A stretch of DNA of 64,000 bases from a bacterium (lineage in GTDB: Bacteria > Joyebacterota > Joyebacteria > Joyebacterales > Joyebacteraceae), in contig JALGZD010000046.1 of NCBI GenBank assembly GCA_025782395.1, positions 1-64,000 on the forward strand, written 5' to 3'. A program made the position numbers and the translations under genes. The stretch's first letter is position 1; each line of letters opens with the position of its first letter. Positions 1,335 to 62,070 of the stretch are shown one piece after another. Below the pieces are notes generated by a model. It did no database searches. It was given only the letters and a program-made list of their open reading frames with translations, and was not told the origin of the DNA.

Positions 1335-1804
1335 TTCGCCGACTCCCGCGCACGTTCAAATGCCAGCCGGACGGCCTCCTCAGGCGTCGTCGCAGGTATC
1401 ACCCCCGCCACGTCGCTCCAGGCTCCAAGCGCCACGGTCGGGATGCCGCTCTTGAGAGCAGTGGCTATTTCGGAGAGGGTTCCTTCCATGCCCGGAAGCG
1501 CTATGACGGCGTTTCCGGACAGCACATTGATCACGTTTCTGGCCTGCCCCATGTCGGTCACGATCGGTATCTTGACGAACTCGTTTGCGTCATCCGCGTG
1601 CGGACCCGGCAGAATGCCGACGGTCACGCCGCCGGCCAGGCGGGCGCCACGCGAAGCAGCCTCCATGACTCCTCCGAGGCCCCCGGAAATCAGAATACCG
1701 CCCCCGCGAGCAATCTCCTGTCCCACTCGCTCGGCCAAGGAGGCGGTTTCGGCGTCACAGCGGCTTCCGCCGACCACTGTGATTCTGACAGGGCGAGATG
1801 TCAA
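1331..1804 (-). CDS. TIGR00725-family SLOG (LOG-like) protein
   Basis: Rossmann-fold protein of the SLOG superfamily, which holds nucleotide-derived-ligand sensors and LOG-type hydrolases often misnamed lysine decarboxylases. Visible motifs are VVGGSRCD at the N-terminus, ILISGGLGGVMEAASRGA and ALPGMEGTLSEI, the last a variant of the PGGxGTxxE motif. The 157-residue length matches TIGR00725. The start is TTG at 1804 with a strong GGGAGG six bases upstream. Its start is only 20 bases from the encoded CCA end of the tRNA-Pro gene, so the two are probably cotranscribed. The true substrate is unknown. Confidence 0.82.
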   Translation of the reverse strand: MTSRPVRITVVGGSRCDAETASLAERVGQEIARGGGILISGGLGGVMEAASRGARLAGGVTVGILPGPHADDANEFVKIPIVTDMGQARNVINVLSGNAVIALPGMEGTLSEIATALKSGIPTVALGAWSDVAGVIPATTPEEAVRLAFERARESAK

Positions 1805-2526: not shown

Positions 2527-3180
2527 TCAGCCGGTGGGGAGTTCCCAACCGTCCTTGCCGACGAGCGGGACGAACGCGCACCCTCCTTCGTCGTGCTCTT
2601 CGATGACCCCATCTCGTTTCTCGACGATCCTGAGCTGCTGCATCGTCCGGGGTCCGACCGGGATGACGAGGATTCCCGGATCGGCAAGCTGTTCGAGGAG
2701 GCTGGTTGGCACAGCCGGTGAGCCGGCCGTCACGAGTATCCTGTCGTAGGGCGCGAACTCTTTCCAGCCTATCGTTCCATCTCCGACGAGTATCGATATG
2801 TTCGTCAGGCCGAGGGTGTCAAGCGTTTCGCGGGCGCGCGTCGCGAGCGTCTCGATTCTCTCGACGCTGAAGACCCGGTCGGCCAGCCTCGAGAGAAGGG
2901 CCGTCTGATAACCCGAGCCCGTACCTATCTCCAGGATCTTCTCCTCTCCGGTGAGCCGGAGCGCCACCGTCATGATGGCCACCATGTATGGTTGAGAAAT
3001 GGTCTGCTCCTCGCCGATCGGGAGCGCGTGATCCCCGTATGCGGACGCTTCCATCCCGCGTCCGACGAACAGGTGTCTTGGCACCTCGCGCATCGTGTCC
3101 AGCACCCGTGTGTCATTCACGCCGCGAGCCGCAATCTGAAGGTCCACCATGTTCTTGCGGAGAGCTTTCCAGTCGGTCAC
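2527..3180 (-). CDS. pcm: Protein-L-isoaspartate O-methyltransferase
   Basis: Cytoplasmic repair enzyme that uses S-adenosylmethionine to methylate L-isoaspartyl residues in aged proteins. Characteristic segments are REVPRHLFV, the family-specific GEEQTISQPYMVA, the SAM-binding loop ILEIGTGSGYQTALL and ILVGDGTIGW. At 217 residues it is full length. Its start overlaps the surE stop by four bases (ATGA), reproducing the widespread surE-pcm pair linked to stationary-phase survival. Confidence 0.96.
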   Translation of the reverse strand: MTDWKALRKNMVDLQIAARGVNDTRVLDTMREVPRHLFVGRGMEASAYGDHALPIGEEQTISQPYMVAIMTVALRLTGEEKILEIGTGSGYQTALLSRLADRVFSVERIETLATRARETLDTLGLTNISILVGDGTIGWKEFAPYDRILVTAGSPAVPTSLLEQLADPGILVIPVGPRTMQQLRIVEKRDGVIEEHDEGGCAFVPLVGKDGWELPTG

Positions 3181-3992
3181 GCGTTCTCCCCTTGCCTCTC
3201 GGTCCTGCCGCGCGCTGCCTCAGCGATGCTGTCGAGCTCCCACCCTTCGAGGATCGCGAACGTCCGGTAGTCGGTGAGATCGAGATGGATAGGCGTGATC
3301 GACACGAAGCCGTCTGCTACCGCGGTGTAGTCTGTATTCGGCTCTATCGACCAGGTCTCCTGTTGTCCACCAATCCAGTAGTACGGTTTTCCCCTGGGAT
3401 CGGTCTGCTCGATGATCAGATCTTCGTACACCTGCTTGCCGAGTCTCGTGATCTTGACTCCCCGGATTGCCTCGGACGGCAGGCTCGGAACGTTGACGTT
3501 GAGAAGGATGCCGTCCGGGAGGCCCCTCTTGAGCACTGCAAGCGACACCTCTCTGGCAATCCTCGCCGCCGCAGTGTAGTCGTAGTCGTTGTTGTCACCC
3601 CGATCCAGCGAGATCGCGATCGCCGGTGTGCCGAGGAGGGTGGCCTCCATGGCCGCCGCAACCGTCCCGGAGTAGGTGATGTCATCTCCCATGTTGGCGC
3701 CCCGGTTGATGCCCGAAACGACGAGATCGGGCTTCACCTCCAGCAGATTCTTGATTGCGAGCATGATGCAGTCGGTCGGCGTTCCATCGACGCTGATGAT
3801 GTTCTCGCTCAGTCGATATGCCCGAATGGGAACCTGAAGCGTCAGCGAGTGGCTGGCCGCGCTTCGCTCACGATCCGGAGCCACCACCTTTATGTTGCCG
3901 ATGCTCGCGAGCTCGCGTTGCAGTGCCTTGATTCCTGCAGCGTCGACGCCGTCGTCGTTGCTGACAAGTATGCATGGGCGTTCAGATCGCAT
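3177..3992 (-). CDS. surE: 5'/3'-nucleotidase SurE
   Basis: Metal-dependent nucleotidase that removes phosphate from nucleoside monophosphates. The N-terminal metal site ILVSNDDGVDA and the later VVSGINRGANMGDDITYSGT are hallmark SurE motifs, with SAASHSLT between them. The length of 271 residues is normal. It is translationally coupled to pcm (four-base overlap) and follows the glycosyltransferase gene with a gap of only four bases, so it probably shares the transcript that begins at the tRNA-Pro(GGG). Confidence 0.96.
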   Translation of the reverse strand: MRSERPCILVSNDDGVDAAGIKALQRELASIGNIKVVAPDRERSAASHSLTLQVPIRAYRLSENIISVDGTPTDCIMLAIKNLLEVKPDLVVSGINRGANMGDDITYSGTVAAAMEATLLGTPAIAISLDRGDNNDYDYTAAARIAREVSLAVLKRGLPDGILLNVNVPSLPSEAIRGVKITRLGKQVYEDLIIEQTDPRGKPYYWIGGQQETWSIEPNTDYTAVADGFVSITPIHLDLTDYRTFAILEGWELDSIAEAARGRTERQGENA

Positions 3993-3996
3993 GCCT

Positions 3997-4668
3997 TTAT
4001 CTCCAGAACAGGCTCCGCCAGATGAGCCTCAGGAATCTCAGAGTGTCGATGACGGGATTGATATGGCTGATTCCATCTGTGTAGATCGATTCGATCGGAA
4101 TGCTCCCGATGCGGAATCCACGTCGGCCCGCCCTGATGAGGATCTCGGACTCCGTGTCGTAGCACCTGGTGACGAGTTCCATGCCCTCGAGCACCGTTGT
4201 ACGTATGATACGATAGCCGCTCTGGCTGTCCGGGATGTCCTGTCGTGCCAGTCGTGAAATGACGCGCGATGTCGTCTGGTTAGTCCAGATGCGAATGCCG
4301 GGCATGTCCCTGACTTCGCCCATCCGGGATCCGACCACGATATCCCATTCCCCCGATTCAAGCGCCTTGATGAAGCTTGGGATGGTCGCAGCATCATGTT
4401 GCTCATCGCCGTCCATTGCTATGATGGCCTCGTAGCCGTGCTCGAGAGCGTAGTCGAAGCCCGTCTTCAGCGCGGCACCCTTTCCCATATTTCGGGAGTG
4501 CTCGACTACTTCCGCCCCGGCCGCGCGTGCCGCTTGTGTCGTTCCATCCGTAGAACCGTCATTCACGACGAGGACATCGAGTCCGAGACCGAGAACACCG
4601 ACGGCGCGGACAACGTTGCCCACGTGATTCTCCAGGTTCTTGCAAGGTATTATGACCAGGGTCTTGAT
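3997..4668 (-). CDS. GT2 family glycosyltransferase, apparent ATC start
   Basis: GT-A glycosyltransferase related to dolichyl/polyprenyl-phosphate sugar synthases. Motifs are LVIIPCKN (first strand), VNDGSTDGTTQAA, the metal motif AMDGDEQHD and DSQSGYRI; there is no clear C-terminal membrane span, though the last 20 residues are hydrophobic and basic. The only usual start (GTG at 4623) would delete the first Rossmann strand. The frame continues upstream through KTLVIIPCKNLENH to ATC at 4666-4668, which has GGGGAGG five bases ahead, with no ATG, GTG or TTG between. I therefore place the start at ATC, overlapping the acyltransferase 3' end by 19 bases. Its neighbour suggests envelope glycolipid work. 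Function is firm at family level; the acceptor is unknown. Confidence 0.85.
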   Translation of the reverse strand: MKTLVIIPCKNLENHVGNVVRAVGVLGLGLDVLVVNDGSTDGTTQAARAAGAEVVEHSRNMGKGAALKTGFDYALEHGYEAIIAMDGDEQHDAATIPSFIKALESGEWDIVVGSRMGEVRDMPGIRIWTNQTTSRVISRLARQDIPDSQSGYRIIRTTVLEGMELVTRCYDTESEILIRAGRRGFRIGSIPIESIYTDGISHINPVIDTLRFLRLIWRSLFWR

Positions 4669-5636
4669 GGTCGCCTCCCCGCACGCCCGGCACCGTGCTT
4701 CGATACCGTCCTGGCCCGCAACTGTAGCGCCCTCATCCTTCTGGCAAGGTGTCTATCGGCCGTTGGCCGGCTGGCGCTCTTCCAGACCGGCCTGAAGACG
4801 TACCACTGCTCCGGATAGCGACGCACGTAGTCTTCCACAATGCCCATCATCCGGATAACGCAGTTCCTGATGTCGGCTTCCTTGTCGTCCGTAGCCGGGG
4901 GGGCAAGCGGGGCTTCTATTCTCAGGTCGTAGAGCCCGTCCGACTGTCTGATGCAGAACGTCGGCACGATCACAGCACCGAAGCGTCTGGCCAGGGCCGC
5001 GTAGCCGTCGGGCGCGAGATAATCCCGCCCGAAGTACTGTACTCTGATCCCCTGTCCCGTAACCGCCCTGTCACCAGCTATCGCAACCAGATGGTGTCTC
5101 TTGAGTTCGCGGAAGAGCCGGCGGAAGGCGGTGACCGGAACGACCGTGCTCCCTGTCCCTTCGCGGATCGAGTTGAAGAAGCCCGTGATTCTGTCGTCCG
5201 GATGCTCGTCCGCGAGTACGGCTACCGGGTGTCCGGTCAGAGCGACCAATGCTCCTCCGAGTTCCCAGTGTCCGAGGTGACCCGTCACCGAAATGGTCGG
5301 TTTCTCGCTCGCCATCTTCGCAAGCGAACGGGCAACATCAAAACTGCCGGCCGTGAATACCTTGTGCGCGTTCTCCATCGTCAAGTAGGGAAGCTTCATG
5401 AAATCGTAGACGAAATGGGAGAAGTTGCTGTAGATCTTCGAGCGGAGCGTTCGGAGTTCGCCGGCCGGCAGGCCGTCGCCGATCGCGGTTCTCAGATTAT
5501 CGTACAGAAAACGCCTGTTGCGGCGTTGGAGGACGGATAGCATTCCGCCCACTGCAGCGGTCGTTCTCCGTGCGGCGGGCAGAGACAGCCTCTTGGTCAA
5601 GAACGCCGCAAACTGATATACGCAGTATGGTATCAT
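4650..5636 (-). CDS. LpxL/HtrB-type lysophospholipid/lipid A acyltransferase
   Basis: Inner-membrane acyltransferase of the LPLAT superfamily that adds secondary acyl chains to lipid A or related lipids. The catalytic motif appears as TGHLGHWELGG (H-x4-E), followed by HPDDRIT, IAGDRAVTGQG and QWYVFRPVW near the C-terminus, as in LpxL. The N-terminal 30 residues form a membrane anchor. At 328 residues it is slightly long because of a basic C-terminal tail. It lies 43 bases downstream of tRNA-Pro(GGG) and its 3' end overlaps the GT2 gene. Together with LapA/LapB it points to an LPS-like outer leaflet. The exact lipid acceptor cannot be read from sequence. Confidence 0.88.
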   Translation of the reverse strand: MIPYCVYQFAAFLTKRLSLPAARRTTAAVGGMLSVLQRRNRRFLYDNLRTAIGDGLPAGELRTLRSKIYSNFSHFVYDFMKLPYLTMENAHKVFTAGSFDVARSLAKMASEKPTISVTGHLGHWELGGALVALTGHPVAVLADEHPDDRITGFFNSIREGTGSTVVPVTAFRRLFRELKRHHLVAIAGDRAVTGQGIRVQYFGRDYLAPDGYAALARRFGAVIVPTFCIRQSDGLYDLRIEAPLAPPATDDKEADIRNCVIRMMGIVEDYVRRYPEQWYVFRPVWKSASRPTADRHLARRMRALQLRARTVSKHGAGRAGRRPSRPWS

Positions 5637-5679: not shown

Positions 5680-5757
5680 TGGTCGGGGCGACTGGATTCG
5701 AACCAGCGACCCCTAGCCCCCCATGCTAGTGCGCTAACCGGGCTGCGCTACGCCCCG
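5680..5757 (-). tRNA. tRNA-Pro (anticodon GGG)
   Basis: Minus-strand cloverleaf with acceptor CGGGGCG/CGCCCCG, discriminator A and an encoded CCA. The anticodon stem CTAGC/GCTAG encloses ATGGGGG, giving anticodon GGG, and the T loop is TTCGAAT. The first 26 bases equal those of the tRNA-Pro(CGG) at 1825, suggesting an old duplication with anticodon-arm divergence. Confidence 0.97.
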
Positions 5758-10167: not shown

Positions 10168-10243
10168 TGGAGCGGGCAACGGGATTCGAACCCGCGACTC
10201 TCAGCTTGGGAAGCTGATACTCTACCAACTGAGTTATGCCCGC
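10168..10243 (-). tRNA. tRNA-Gly (anticodon CCC)
   Basis: Minus-strand cloverleaf: acceptor GCGGGCA/TGCCCGC with discriminator T and encoded CCA, anticodon stem TCAGC/GCTGA closing TTCCCAA, so anticodon CCC. The T loop reads TTCGAAT. It lies 25 bases downstream of a near-consensus promoter and 66 bases before the DUF512 gene. Confidence 0.97.
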
Positions 10244-18762: not shown

Positions 18763-19899
18763 TCAGTCCACATCGATCCACTTGTGGCACGACGGGCAGC
18801 GCCAGCCGGTCGGTCCGAGGGCGTCTCCACAGTGGGGACACTTGTCGAAGGCGGCCTCATCGGTTGTCCTGGCGAGAAATCCATCGGCTATGCGAGCCGC
18901 TTCGTCGAGCCTGCCTGCGGCCACAAGCGTCTGGATCAGACGCCTGTGTCCGAGTGCGGTGTCGCCCTCGTGCTTGATGGCTTCGCGCGCCACCCTGACG
19001 GCCTCTTCCACATCTCCCTTGCGTTCGTGCATTCGCGAAAGACCGCAGAGCGCGGGGACATTGGATGGCGTTTTCAAGAGCACGTCCTCATACACCCTCA
19101 TCATTCTGCCGTAATCACCTATCTCGAAGTATGCCTTCTCGAGGCGTTCGAATGCCAGGTGCCCTTTGCCGGGCGCATCGGCGAGCAGCTTCGTCCAGTA
19201 TGCGATTGCCCTCTCGGTGTCCTCCTCAGAGGCAGCCATGTCACCAAGATACAGATTGGCCAAGGCTGCCCGTACGGAATCCTCCTTCAGGGCTCCGAGA
19301 AACCCCGTCTTCGCCTTGGCGCGGTCTCCGGCTGCCAGCGCTCTCGTTGCCACGTGTGCTCGGTAGACGGCCAACGATGGCTGTCCGTCTGCTCCGGCGC
19401 TCTTGAGGACATCCTTGTGTGTCTGGACTGCCCGGTCCATCTGGCCTGTTTCCTCGCATGCGTCACGCAGAAGTGCGGTCATCCGGGGATCGACACGCTC
19501 ACCCCGGGGCAGCGAGCCTATGCTCTCGATCACTTCGGCCCATCGTTCAGCCTCTGCCAAATCAAGCGCCAGGCATTTGATGATCGAGCTTCTCACGGTT
19601 CTTGGAAGGCGCCGCTTGACCAGGAGTTCCCTGTGGACCTGGATTGCCTGCTTGGTCCGACCACGTTCCCTGAGCAGATTGCCGAGCTTGATGTAGGCGT
19701 CGAGATTGCGTGGATCTTGCCGCACGGCCGTCTTCAGATGCAGAACTGCCGCATCGCGGTCGCCTGAGATCATGGCGTTCAGGCCAAGGTTGTAAGCGCT
19801 TTCTTCATCAGTACGGCGTCGGGATTTGCGGCGGGCGACCGCAGTCGCGCCGAACGCAACCAACGCGACGCAGACAACGATGATGATCGCGAGGTTCAT
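18763..19899 (-). CDS. lapB: LapB (YciM)-like TPR protein with C-terminal rubredoxin-type zinc ribbon
   Basis: Single N-terminal membrane span (NLAIIIVVCVALVAFGATAV), a cytosolic array of about eight TPR motifs and a C-terminal CPHCGDALGPTGWRCPSCHKW zinc ribbon. This is the exact architecture of LapB, which in Enterobacteria recruits LpxC to FtsH and so balances lipid A against phospholipid. The ATG at 19899 follows GGGAGTAGGTG. The lapA gene lies immediately upstream, as in Proteobacteria, and an LpxL-like gene occurs near 5 kb. The regulatory role is inferred from architecture and gene pairing. Confidence 0.86.
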   Translation of the reverse strand: MNLAIIIVVCVALVAFGATAVARRKSRRRTDEESAYNLGLNAMISGDRDAAVLHLKTAVRQDPRNLDAYIKLGNLLRERGRTKQAIQVHRELLVKRRLPRTVRSSIIKCLALDLAEAERWAEVIESIGSLPRGERVDPRMTALLRDACEETGQMDRAVQTHKDVLKSAGADGQPSLAVYRAHVATRALAAGDRAKAKTGFLGALKEDSVRAALANLYLGDMAASEEDTERAIAYWTKLLADAPGKGHLAFERLEKAYFEIGDYGRMMRVYEDVLLKTPSNVPALCGLSRMHERKGDVEEAVRVAREAIKHEGDTALGHRRLIQTLVAAGRLDEAARIADGFLARTTDEAAFDKCPHCGDALGPTGWRCPSCHKWIDVD

Positions 19900-35248: not shown

Positions 35249-35321
35249 TGATTAATTGTGATGAGAGATCCAGGGTGCGAGCGTATGCGCCCCGGCAGGA
35301 GATGTACAGGGAGGTATCGAG

Positions 35322-35567
35322 TTGCCCCAGAAAAAGTCGGCCATCAAGAGACTCAGGCAGTCCAAGAAGCTGAACGAAAAGAACAGGGCCATCAAGTCGC
35401 GCGCGTCCACGGCCATCAAGAAGGTTGCCGGCGCCTCTTCTGAGGAGAGGAACGCGAGGGTGCGTGAGGCTGTTTCAGCAATCGACCGCGCTGCCAAGCA
35501 CGGCGTCCTCAGCGCACACGCTGCGGACAGAAAGAAGTCCGGTCTGATGAAAAAGAGCGACGCCTAA
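35322..35567 (+). CDS. rpsT: 30S ribosomal protein S20
   Basis: Primary-binding small-subunit protein. The 81-residue basic sequence starts PQKKSAIKRLRQSKKLNEKN and is rich in Lys, Arg and Ala, as expected. It starts with TTG behind GGGAGG at seven bases. A UUG start is also known for E. coli rpsT, where it takes part in autogenous control. One of only two plus-strand genes before 56.8 kb, monocistronic, and followed by a strong hairpin. Confidence 0.96.
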   Translation: MPQKKSAIKRLRQSKKLNEKNRAIKSRASTAIKKVAGASSEERNARVREAVSAIDRAAKHGVLSAHAADRKKSGLMKKSDA

Positions 35568-58105: not shown

Positions 58106-59352
58106 CCCGGAGGGTCCTTGGCAGCGGCCTGGTGCTTCTTGTGTCCGAACAGCGCAAGGAACCCCTGTTCACAGCGATGCTCTCCATCGAAGCCGGCTCT
58201 CGCTACGAACGCAAGGAGCTCGCCGGAGTCGCGGCGCTGACAGCAAGCGCGCTGGTCGAGGGTACAGCTGGCCGGAGCGCAGGTCAGATCGCGGAGGCAA
58301 TCGACGGCATCGGGGCTACTCTCGACGTGGTACCCAGCTACGAAACCGTGACTCTTTCTATTACCGGACTCTCCCGGTACATGGCCGATGCCCTCGAAAT
58401 TCTGCACGAGATCGTCTCCGAGCCGCTCTTCAACCCAGTGGATATCGAAGATTCACGCAGGGCACTTCTCTCAGAGATCGCGGAAGATGTCGATGATCCA
58501 TATCACGTTGCCCAGCGCGAGCTGTCTGCGAGGGTTTTCGCCGGGCATCCGCGGAGTCGCCCGACGAATGGAACCAGGGAGAGTGTCGCGCGGCTCAGTC
58601 GCGACGAGATGGCTGATCATTTCGCACGAAGATACACGCCCGGAAACTCAGTCCTGTCGATCGCCGGGCACGTTGATTCGGAAAGAGCACTGGCGTTGGC
58701 GGAACGCTGCTTCGAGCACTGGAAAGGCGACAAGTCTGAACAGACGGAGCCGGCGCCCCCGGATCTGTCAGCGGCGTCACGGAGCGACATCCGGATGCGA
58801 CGCGAGCAGGTGCACATAGTGCTCGGCCATCTGGGAGTAGCGCGGGCGGCCCCTGATTTCTATGCTCTGAGAGTCCTGGATGTGATCCTCGGCGATGGCG
58901 CCGGATTCACCTCGCGTCTTGCCATTCGCCTGAGAGAAAGCAAAGGGCTGTCGTACGTCATCGAGAGTGATATCACGGGGTCTGCGGGGCTCGATCCCGG
59001 TCTGTTCTGGGTGTACACGGCGACGTTGCCGTCGCAGGCCGAGCAGGCCATAGAGTGTATCCGGTCCGAGCTCGAGAGGGCACGGAGCGAGGAACCTACC
59101 GAGCAAGAGCAGCAGTCCTCCATCGCCTACCTTCTGGGACAGCGTCTCGCGGACCGTGAGACCACAGAGGGTATCTGTGCTCGGGCGATTTCCATCGAGC
59201 GATATTCTCTGGGCCTTGACTACGATGCAAGGTATCCCGACATCATCGGCTCCGTTACCTCGGAACAGGTGCTCAAGGCAGCACGGCGGGTTCTGCACCC
59301 TGACCTGCTCTCGGTAGTTCTCGTCGGCCCCCGGGCCGACTCCACGTCGTAG
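58084..59352 (+). CDS. M16 family peptidase-like protein lacking the zinc motif
   Basis: Second M16 protein, starting at the ATG at 58084 (MARDPGIARRVLGSG). Where a catalytic M16 has HxxEH, this has GVAALTASALVEG, so no zinc site; YTPGNSVLSIAGHVDSE and LRESKGLSYVIES are normal M16 features. It is presumably the non-catalytic partner of the preceding gene, as with alpha/beta mitochondrial processing peptidase. Its 3' 133 bases overlap the convergent comEC frame. Confidence 0.9.
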   Translation: MARDPGIARRVLGSGLVLLVSEQRKEPLFTAMLSIEAGSRYERKELAGVAALTASALVEGTAGRSAGQIAEAIDGIGATLDVVPSYETVTLSITGLSRYMADALEILHEIVSEPLFNPVDIEDSRRALLSEIAEDVDDPYHVAQRELSARVFAGHPRSRPTNGTRESVARLSRDEMADHFARRYTPGNSVLSIAGHVDSERALALAERCFEHWKGDKSEQTEPAPPDLSAASRSDIRMRREQVHIVLGHLGVARAAPDFYALRVLDVILGDGAGFTSRLAIRLRESKGLSYVIESDITGSAGLDPGLFWVYTATLPSQAEQAIECIRSELERARSEEPTEQEQQSSIAYLLGQRLADRETTEGICARAISIERYSLGLDYDARYPDIIGSVTSEQVLKAARRVLHPDLLSVVLVGPRADSTS

Positions 59353-61988
59353 CTGGTTCGATCCGGCTCTTCCATGTGGCCCCTTCGTTCAGCCTGCGGC
59401 TGCGGAGCAAAGAGACCGCTCAATCCGCGATCTGCCCGAGGCTTCCGAAAAGAACCGATGTATGCGCTGCGGCCGCTGCCTATGCACCTGACCAGCGTTC
59501 TCTTCCTCCCCACATCTACAACGATGGCTCCATCAAGGTCGGTTCGGAAGAGCTCTCGCACGGTGCCGCCGAGCCGAGCAACTGCGTGTGGGCATGGGTG
59601 CCCGTAGCGGTTCTTTCTGCCTACGGAGATGACAGCGATCTCCGCAAGAGAGGCCTGCAGGAAGTCACCAGTGCTGGATGTCGACGAGCCGTGGTGCGCC
59701 ACCTTCAGTATGTCTGTCTCGATCGGCGAACCGCTCGCACGAAGCATACGTTCTGTCGGCGCTTCGATGTCACCCGTCAGCAGCACACGAAGGCCGTCCA
59801 ATCGCGCTGAGAGCACAATCGAACGGTCGTTCTCCGTGGGGGCGCGCGATGCCCACAGTTCGGAGGGCGCGAGACAGACGAGCGCGCAGTCCGGACCAAG
59901 GCGCAGACTGTCGCCACGAGCGAGAGTGACAATGCGGGTTCCGGCGGCATCCGCCTGCTCAAGCAGTCTCGGAACACGTCCGGCTTCAATGAGGTCTGCC
60001 GTGACAACCAGCTTCTCTACTCTGATCGACGAAAAGACGGCGGCGGCCCCCCCGTAGTGGTCCGCGTGGCCATGGGTAACCACAAGCGCATCGAGCGAGC
60101 GGATCCCTCTGCTTTTCAGATAGGGCACTATGACATCGCGTCCTGAGTCGGGTCCATGCCAGCCAAGCGCTGCCGGACCCGCGTCGACCAGCACCCGGTG
60201 CCCGAACGGAACCTCGATGAGCGCGGAGTCCCCTTGTCCCACGTCGAAGAAGACCACGCGTGTGTGCGTGCGTCCGGGACCCGTGAACAGCGTGACCAAG
60301 CCACCGAGTGCCATTGCCACGGTGACCGTTCGCAGACAGACCACCGCCTTCCGCCGGCGGGTGCGCATGCTCATGGCTAAAGCGATCACTGTCAGCCCTA
60401 GTGGAATCGCCAGTGACGTGGGCAGCGTTACGGAAGCCGCCGGCAACTCGCGCGCCAGGCGGACCACAACGGTCAGGGCCTTGAGTGTGGCCCACGTCGC
60501 AGCGGCAAGAACGTGCGCGGCCTCAGGAGTCAGCGGGTCGAGAGCCAGCGTGGCGAGACCCGAGGCCACTGACGCTCCCGCCAGCGGCACGACAATGAGA
60601 TTGGCGAGCGGCGCCACCAATGACACGTCTCCACCGGAGCTGATGATGATTGGAGCAACGCCCATCTGCGCGGAGACGCTGAGAGCGAGAGCTCCCAGAA
60701 GAAACTCGCGAGCGCTCGATCCAAGACGTACATGCGATCCGTGCGTGTCGCACCCCAGGGTGCATTTCATGACCTTCAGAATCGGTTGTCGCAGGAAGAT
60801 GATTCCCAGCACGGCAGCGAACGAGAGTCTGAAGCCCATATCGAACGCAGCGCCGGGCCGGGCGAGAAGCAGTATGAGCGCCGCGAGCCCGACAGCGTTG
60901 AGCGGATTCGGTCGTCTCTGAAGTGACCAGGTTGTGACGAATACGGTTGCCATCAGTGCTGCGCGAACAACCGAGGGGCGAACGCCCACCGCCGTCACGA
61001 AGACAAACAGAAGTGGAATCGTCGCGAGGCGAGCAGCTCTCGGCGAAATCCGCAGTGTCCTCAGAAGCGCGAATGCGATGAGTAGAATGAACCCGGTGTG
61101 GAGCCCGGACACGGCCAGCACGTGCACTGTCCCGGATGCTCTGAAGGACTGTACGAGATCGTCGCCAAGGCGGTCGGTGCGCCCGAGCAGAAGCCCCCTC
61201 AGTAGAGCTGCCGATTCTCCGGACAGGTGCTTCTGAATTGTCCGTTCAATTGCAGACGAGAGGTTCTCAACTCCGGCAGACCGCGTGAGGAGTTCGACCG
61301 ATCGTGGCCGCATGACCCTGTTGATGCGTCTCTCCCGGAGGTACGAGGAAAAATCGAAGGCGCCCGGATTGCGCCTGCCTGCCGGGATATCGGTTGTCCC
61401 GTTCATCAGCGCCACATCGCCCCTTCTGAGAACGGGCGCGCCCTTGGGCAAACTGACCCAGATGAGGCCCGATGCGGGGTGCGACTCGGCGCCTCCGATT
61501 CGGAGGCGCCGCAAGGTGACCACCGCTCGTGGGCGACCGTGCTCCGGGTAGCGCACTTCGTGCACGAGAGCCTCGGCGCATATCTCCATCTGTGTGGGCA
61601 GAAGTGAGATGTCGTCCGGAGCGACCAGGAAGTGAGCAGAGGTGTGGAGGGCGGCGCCGGTCAGCGCGAAAGAGACAAGCAGCATGCAATCCACAGCAAG
61701 CACCGATCGCGAGCCGCCGCCTTTCCAGCGCCGCCGACCTGGATCGGGCTTGTCGCTGTTTCCAAACCGTCGGGAAGTGTCAACCGCGTTGACGTCGTCA
61801 CGTTTACGGAGGGATATGCCAACGCTTGTGCCTGCCGGTACTGCGAGAAGAACCGCCAGTGCCATCGTCGCAGGCAGATACTCCGGAGAGAGCGCGTGGC
61901 CGGCGGATATGCCCGCGAAGAGTGCACAAGCGATCACAAAGGCCGGCGCCCGACCGAGTCTGGTGTCAGAGATGCCCGGGTGCGTCAT
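59220..61988 (-). CDS. comEC: ComEC/Rec2 DNA-uptake channel protein
   Basis: Polytopic membrane protein for import of single-stranded DNA during transformation. It has an N-terminal region with membrane spans, an OB-like domain, the Competence domain (VHVLAVSGLHTGFILLIAF, GVRPSVVRAALMATVF) and a C-terminal metallo-beta-lactamase domain with VVTHGHADHYGG and KVAHHGSSTSST. About 90 residues after the normal end read antisense to the M16 gene and look like a run-on tail with no domain. ATG at 61988 without a strong ribosome-binding site. It implies natural competence if the remaining genes are present elsewhere. Confidence 0.93.
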   Translation of the reverse strand: MTHPGISDTRLGRAPAFVIACALFAGISAGHALSPEYLPATMALAVLLAVPAGTSVGISLRKRDDVNAVDTSRRFGNSDKPDPGRRRWKGGGSRSVLAVDCMLLVSFALTGAALHTSAHFLVAPDDISLLPTQMEICAEALVHEVRYPEHGRPRAVVTLRRLRIGGAESHPASGLIWVSLPKGAPVLRRGDVALMNGTTDIPAGRRNPGAFDFSSYLRERRINRVMRPRSVELLTRSAGVENLSSAIERTIQKHLSGESAALLRGLLLGRTDRLGDDLVQSFRASGTVHVLAVSGLHTGFILLIAFALLRTLRISPRAARLATIPLLFVFVTAVGVRPSVVRAALMATVFVTTWSLQRRPNPLNAVGLAALILLLARPGAAFDMGFRLSFAAVLGIIFLRQPILKVMKCTLGCDTHGSHVRLGSSAREFLLGALALSVSAQMGVAPIIISSGGDVSLVAPLANLIVVPLAGASVASGLATLALDPLTPEAAHVLAAATWATLKALTVVVRLARELPAASVTLPTSLAIPLGLTVIALAMSMRTRRRKAVVCLRTVTVAMALGGLVTLFTGPGRTHTRVVFFDVGQGDSALIEVPFGHRVLVDAGPAALGWHGPDSGRDVIVPYLKSRGIRSLDALVVTHGHADHYGGAAAVFSSIRVEKLVVTADLIEAGRVPRLLEQADAAGTRIVTLARGDSLRLGPDCALVCLAPSELWASRAPTENDRSIVLSARLDGLRVLLTGDIEAPTERMLRASGSPIETDILKVAHHGSSTSSTGDFLQASLAEIAVISVGRKNRYGHPCPHAVARLGGTVRELFRTDLDGAIVVDVGRKRTLVRCIGSGRSAYIGSFRKPRADRGLSGLFAPQPQAERRGHMEEPDRTSYDVESARGPTRTTESRSGCRTRRAALSTCSEVTEPMMSGYLAS

Positions 61989-62070
61989 TCGGCGTCAGGG
62001 GCGCGAGGGGTGGAAATGGCGTGGATCCTGGTGCGTACGGTAGGTGAGCAGCTTGCGTGCCTGAGTCCTG

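Follow-up and report, generated by a model that had tools for sequence, protein, structure and literature searches.

A glycosyltransferase gene without a usual start codon at a stop/start junction that is kept in two sister species, and its candidate ATC start

The gene studied here lies in contig JALGZD010000046.1 (assembly GCA_025782395.1) of a member of the Joyebacteraceae, and we refer to the whole stretch of 64,000 nucleotides that was analysed as the window. It encodes a GT2 glycosyltransferase and is located between the genes for an LpxL/HtrB-type acyltransferase and SurE. The features of the locus are as follows.

4650..5636, minus strand: LpxL/HtrB-type acyltransferase, ending with TAA at 4652-4650 (PF03279, E 1.2e-33)
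4674..4680, minus strand: GGGGAGG, Shine-Dalgarno-like, five bases before the ATC (-12.6 kcal/mol when paired with an assumed anti-Shine-Dalgarno)
4671..4674, minus strand: GCGA, where both sister species have GTGA; the differing base is 4673 (sister alignment)
4666..4668, minus strand: ATC, proposed start of the glycosyltransferase (homologous to ATG or GTG in 14/14 family loci outside the genus, and to ATC or GTC in the sisters)
4621..4623, minus strand: GTG, the first usual in-frame start, inside the domain and not kept in the sisters (sequence, sister alignment)
3997..4668, minus strand: GT2 glycosyltransferase (PF00535; NF058614 below cut-off; 5mlz)
3177..3992, minus strand: SurE, the next gene downstream of the glycosyltransferase (PF01975, E 5.5e-64)

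The glycosyltransferase frame (3997-4668) ends with a stop codon at 3999-3997 and is open back to a TAG at 4755-4753, as read from the sequence and its translation. When read from ATC 4668 the protein has 223 aa, and the Pfam domain Glycos_transf_2 covers residues 5-160 (E 6.6e-20) at 72.2 bits, against a Pfam cut-off of 23.3. The NCBIfam model for PpgS matched residues 4-198 (E 6.3e-32), and the best-scoring solved relative by sequence was the dolichol-phosphate mannose synthase 5mlz (E 3.7e-13, residues 2-222). The similarity to both extends over most of the protein, and polyprenyl-phosphate sugar synthases are among its best profile matches. However, the PpgS score of 110.8 bits is below the curated cut-off of 370, which places the protein outside this equivalog, and its 223 aa compare with 374 in the 5mlz chain. 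The gene is under purifying selection, with a dN/dS of 0.122 and 0.189 in comparison to the sister species G003 and G001, respectively. A decaying pseudogene is not supported, given these ratios (0.12-0.19) and the full-length frame.

We read all codons of this frame between the TAG at 4755-4753 and the GTG at 4623-4621, and observed no ATG, GTG or TTG. The initial annotation had described GTG 4623 as the only usual start, with the first strand of the domain upstream of it and no usual start codon from there back to a GGGGAGG; this was borne out by our reading, and the absence extends beyond the GGGGAGG up to the TAG. Since the Glycos_transf_2 match covers residues 5-160 as counted from the ATC, the domain begins upstream of GTG 4623. 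The order on the minus strand is GGGGAGG (4680-4674), CGACC (4673-4669) and ATC (4668-4666), which confirms the spacing of five bases between the GGGGAGG and the ATC that had been noted earlier. The codons that follow (AAG ACC CTG GTC ATA ATA CCT TGC AAG AAC) encode K-T-L-V-I-I-P-C-K-N. In the sequence as given, ATC 4668-4666 is the best-placed codon for initiation: the domain has no canonical start upstream of it, and a Shine-Dalgarno sequence is spaced for the ATC.

We compared the junction with those of G003 and G001, in which the glycosyltransferase is 88% and 87% identical to that of the window. The genus comparison consisted of these two and the window; G002 (78% complete) and G004 (73%) contained no match, which is uninformative by itself. 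The junction codons are GAG GCG ACC ATC in the window, GAG GTG ACC ATC in G003 and GAG GTG ACC GTC in G001. Both sisters have a GTG two codons upstream of the ATC position (at the equivalents of 4674-4672), within a GTGA whose TGA (the position of 4673-4671) is the acyltransferase stop. This stop/start pair, a four-base overlap with a canonical glycosyltransferase start, is absent in the window, which reads GCGA. Here CGA takes the place of the acyltransferase stop codon, so that this frame continues for another seven codons up to the TAA at 4652-4650. Thus a single T-to-C difference on the coding strand, at 4673, leads both to the missing glycosyltransferase start and to the longer overlap with the acyltransferase.

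The initial annotation had proposed either a true non-canonical start or a consensus error, the latter as an ATG misread at 4666. The two options were the right ones, but a misread ATG at 4666 is unsupported, as G003 reads ATC and G001 reads GTC at this position. Because the sisters have no ATG at 4666-4668 but do have GTG where the window has GCG, the suspect base is probably 4673 and not 4666. The suggested comparison with orthologues speaks only partly for the ATC: it is kept in one of the two sisters, weak evidence since both have the canonical GTG two codons upstream, and the other sister has GTC. Neither of the two congeners therefore combines the ATC with the lack of a nearby canonical start. 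On the basis of these alignments, the comparison suggests either a loss that is new in this lineage, with a weak start codon to make up for it, or an error in the sequence.

AUU starts, which are conserved and regulatory, are used by infC and pcnB of Escherichia coli. The proposed glycosyltransferase start is likewise an ATN codon other than ATG; however, it varies within the genus (ATC, ATC and GTC). Another comparable case is L12ae of Staphylothermus marinus, for which an excerpt of PMC2678158 proposes a non-canonical ATC start from an alignment of orthologues. There too a conserved gene lacks a valid start codon and the ATC was inferred by alignment, but it is an archaeal ribosomal gene, whereas the sisters of the glycosyltransferase have a nearby canonical GTG that the window lacks.

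The glycosyltransferase may also be reached by other routes: ribosomes could shift by -1 out of the acyltransferase frame, start at CTG 4659, or make a shorter protein that begins at GTG 4623. The glycosyltransferase frame is indeed offset by -1 from that of the acyltransferase, with an overlap of about 100 bases, but we observed no XXXYYYZ heptamer in the acyltransferase phase within this overlap. All three genus members have CTG 4659, which pairs at -7.4, but this codon is 14 bases from the GGGGAGG. GTG 4623 has a TGGAGA five bases before it (-6.4); despite this it was rejected as the start of the glycosyltransferase, since the first strand would be dropped and the position reads GTA and ATA in the two sisters. 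Taken together, we consider these routes very improbable.

We also evaluated the wider family, where the gene was found at E 1e-60 or better in 16 of the 20 genomes searched, including the window's own. Outside the genus, the codon at the ATC position was ATG in 11 and GTG in three loci (14/14 loci from 13 genomes; G018 has two). The earlier alignment of the start at 4666-4668 is thus right for the family, and this uniformity makes the ATC position the probable site of the ancestral start, with the overlap of the sisters sitting two codons upstream of it. In three of the 14 loci (L015, L017 and L018) a further in-frame ATG occurs 3 to 7 codons upstream, and their true start may be earlier. A four-base overlap between the glycosyltransferase start and the acyltransferase TGA occurs in six of the 14. 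In a tree of SurE, the glycosyltransferase and the acyltransferase from nine genomes, the window grouped with G001, with G003 outside (support 89/89, where the tool takes 95 as firm). With this grouping and GTGA in both sisters, GTGA is ancestral by parsimony and GCGA is derived.

Two other observations were made in these genomes. The two loci of G018 (contamination 6), L020 on G018:C64 and L048 on G018:C10, are 63% and 62% identical to the window, and could reflect a mixed bin. At L021 (G005:C3) the open glycosyltransferase frame spans 554 codons, of which about 330 precede the glycosyltransferase start, on the acyltransferase strand but in another frame; this is perhaps a chance frame in G+C-rich DNA.

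We further estimated the pairing of these sites with the anti-Shine-Dalgarno sequence. No match to the 16S rRNA model (RF00177) was obtained in four assemblies (G000, G001, G003 and G008); the usual tail was assumed. Each energy is that of the strongest duplex within the 18 upstream bases, whatever its spacing. The site before the ATC had -12.6 kcal/mol, in comparison to a median of -8.2 and a best value of -12.1 for 41 canonical starts of the window (the genes at 1040 and 23025, among the 43 others, were left out, and one gene was scored at 18884 instead of the fully shared 18860). The sites before the ATC and GTC codons of the sisters were stronger, at -16.0 kcal/mol in G003 and -15.2 kcal/mol in G001. 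The sister GTG codons had -6.2 (G003) and -6.0 kcal/mol (G001); a GGAG lies directly against the GTG, and no Shine-Dalgarno motif was found at normal spacing. As 13 of the 41 canonical starts are weaker than -6.0 kcal/mol, weak pairing alone does not exclude the sister GTG.

These energies bear on a reading in which the ATC, ATC and GTC codons would be the true start throughout the genus, the canonical codon having been lost in the ancestor, with an extended Shine-Dalgarno to compensate for it (GGAGGTGA in the sisters). In that case GTGA would be only the acyltransferase stop and a part of the Shine-Dalgarno, the sister GTG would be a by-product, and the change in the window would be nearly neutral. 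Among the 17 loci the three strongest sites are those of the genus members (-16.0, -15.2 and -12.6), while the 14 others, all with ATG or GTG at this position, range from -2.2 to -12.4. Random sites are rarely as strong (among 15,985 18-mers sampled from the minus strand of the window, 55 reach -12.6, six reach -15.2 and none reaches -16.0), and the sister GTG is weakly paired. As judged from base pairing, this pattern suggests that it is the ATC/ATC/GTC codon to which ribosomes are directed in the genus. However, a TGA after GGAGG lengthens the pairing by itself, so that a part of it is automatic, and one genus counts as one event and not three, which makes the case weaker. The window value also hardly exceeds that of the next locus (L024, -12.4). 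Furthermore, GTC, a poor codon for the initiator tRNA, would have to work in G001, while a canonical in-frame GTG lies two codons upstream in both sisters.

Work on overlapping genes can be cited on both sides. Excerpts of PMC6728339 describe four-base overlaps with termination-reinitiation as widespread. Across five E. coli gene pairs the Shine-Dalgarno varied in importance, from strictly required to irrelevant; its removal cut reinitiation substantially in four of the five, which is in favour of the genus-wide start, but some pairs reinitiate without it, and the sister GTG would be no weaker than the 13 window starts mentioned above. The GTGA of the sisters and the four-base overlaps in the family resemble such ATGA-type pairs; unlike them, the window has no such junction, and in the genus members the spacing of the Shine-Dalgarno suits the codon that follows the junction. 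On balance, we regard a genus-wide non-canonical start as unlikely.

A second four-base overlap was seen nearby, between SurE and the next gene (2527-3180, presumably methyltransferase-like), at 3177-3180. Its GTG 3180 is kept in both sisters and, unlike the glycosyltransferase junction, has AAGGGGAGA four bases before it.

We also asked how unusual the missing start is within the window. Fifty frames were chosen, from which five were left out as short or antisense-looking (one of these, 35265-35567 on the plus strand, may be a real gene) and 59220-61994 was dropped, as no relative covered its N-terminus; this left 44 genes, one of them compared with G003 only. The shared canonical start was judged usable in 43 of the 44. 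The glycosyltransferase was the only one whose first sister-shared canonical start (GTG 4566) falls inside a conserved domain, by a reading done by eye in which the domain position was checked against the domain model for the glycosyltransferase and judged from the start table for the other 43. In five other genes a start codon was present in the relatives only, yet a shared canonical start occurred further on (again by eye).

This result fits an error in the consensus, or a minor allele, at 4673; the organism would then have GTGA, the glycosyltransferase would start at GTG, and nothing would be unusual. It is the cheapest account of a single base, as one transition removes two signals at a site kept in both sisters, and the source assembly is fragmented (231 contigs, contamination 3.59). 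On the other hand, each of the 44 genes has an unbroken match in at least one sister that covers at least 90% of its length (seven fall short against the other sister), so that no frame break points to poor assembly and the consensus looks good. We give this explanation a substantial chance, though one short of even.

Other features of the window were also recorded in this survey. The gene at 1331-1804 has a one-piece match of 99% to G003 and of only 21% to G001 (L047), which seems to be without about 250 bases here (window 1426-1674). Three tRNA genes were recorded, Pro cgg (1825-1902), Pro ggg (5680-5757) and Gly ccc (10168-10243), two of which fall on short stretches with matches in several contigs of relatives.

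The strength of ATC as a start is described variously. A part of PMC6925171 lists its efficiency relative to ATG both at 19.0-43.9% and at 0.01-6.5%. As excerpted, PMC4965119 uses AUC as a knock-out of AUG and PMC10303841 reports a much lower expression for an AUC start mutant, while a passage of PMC10210955 describes a Neisseria gene with an ATG to ATC change that escaped automatic annotation. The passages of PMC11497404 do not mention AUC.

The explanation that we tentatively prefer, with a probability of about 0.4, is a real loss of the GTGA with fallback to the ATC start. In the genus ancestor, the glycosyltransferase would have been translated from the GTG of a GTGA junction common with the acyltransferase stop, and the old start site two codons downstream would have drifted to ATC. 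In the window lineage, the T-to-C difference observed at 4673, if real, would have changed GTGA to GCGA. The acyltransferase would then run seven codons further, and an intact glycosyltransferase would be made from ATC 4668-4666, positioned by the GGGGAGG, probably at reduced yield. This reading is supported by the tree, the intact and constrained gene, the strongest Shine-Dalgarno pairing among the window starts scored, and a single base that explains both changes. It is weakened by the selection expected against the loss of a start in a constrained gene. The ancestral GTG start is also less certain, since the sister GTG has its GGAG directly adjoining, no motif at normal spacing, and weak pairing.

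If the base at 4673 is an error, it would be a reason to examine start anomalies in draft genomes at the adjoining stop/start overlap as well as at the codon that seems closest to ATG. If the genus-wide reading were true, the window, with an intact gene and no GTG, would be a natural experiment that reveals a non-canonical start with an unusually long Shine-Dalgarno. If the base is real, a single substitution has abolished both a start and a stop where two genes overlap, yet left the gene intact, and the locus would offer a clean natural test of the extent to which a strong Shine-Dalgarno can stand in for a canonical start codon.
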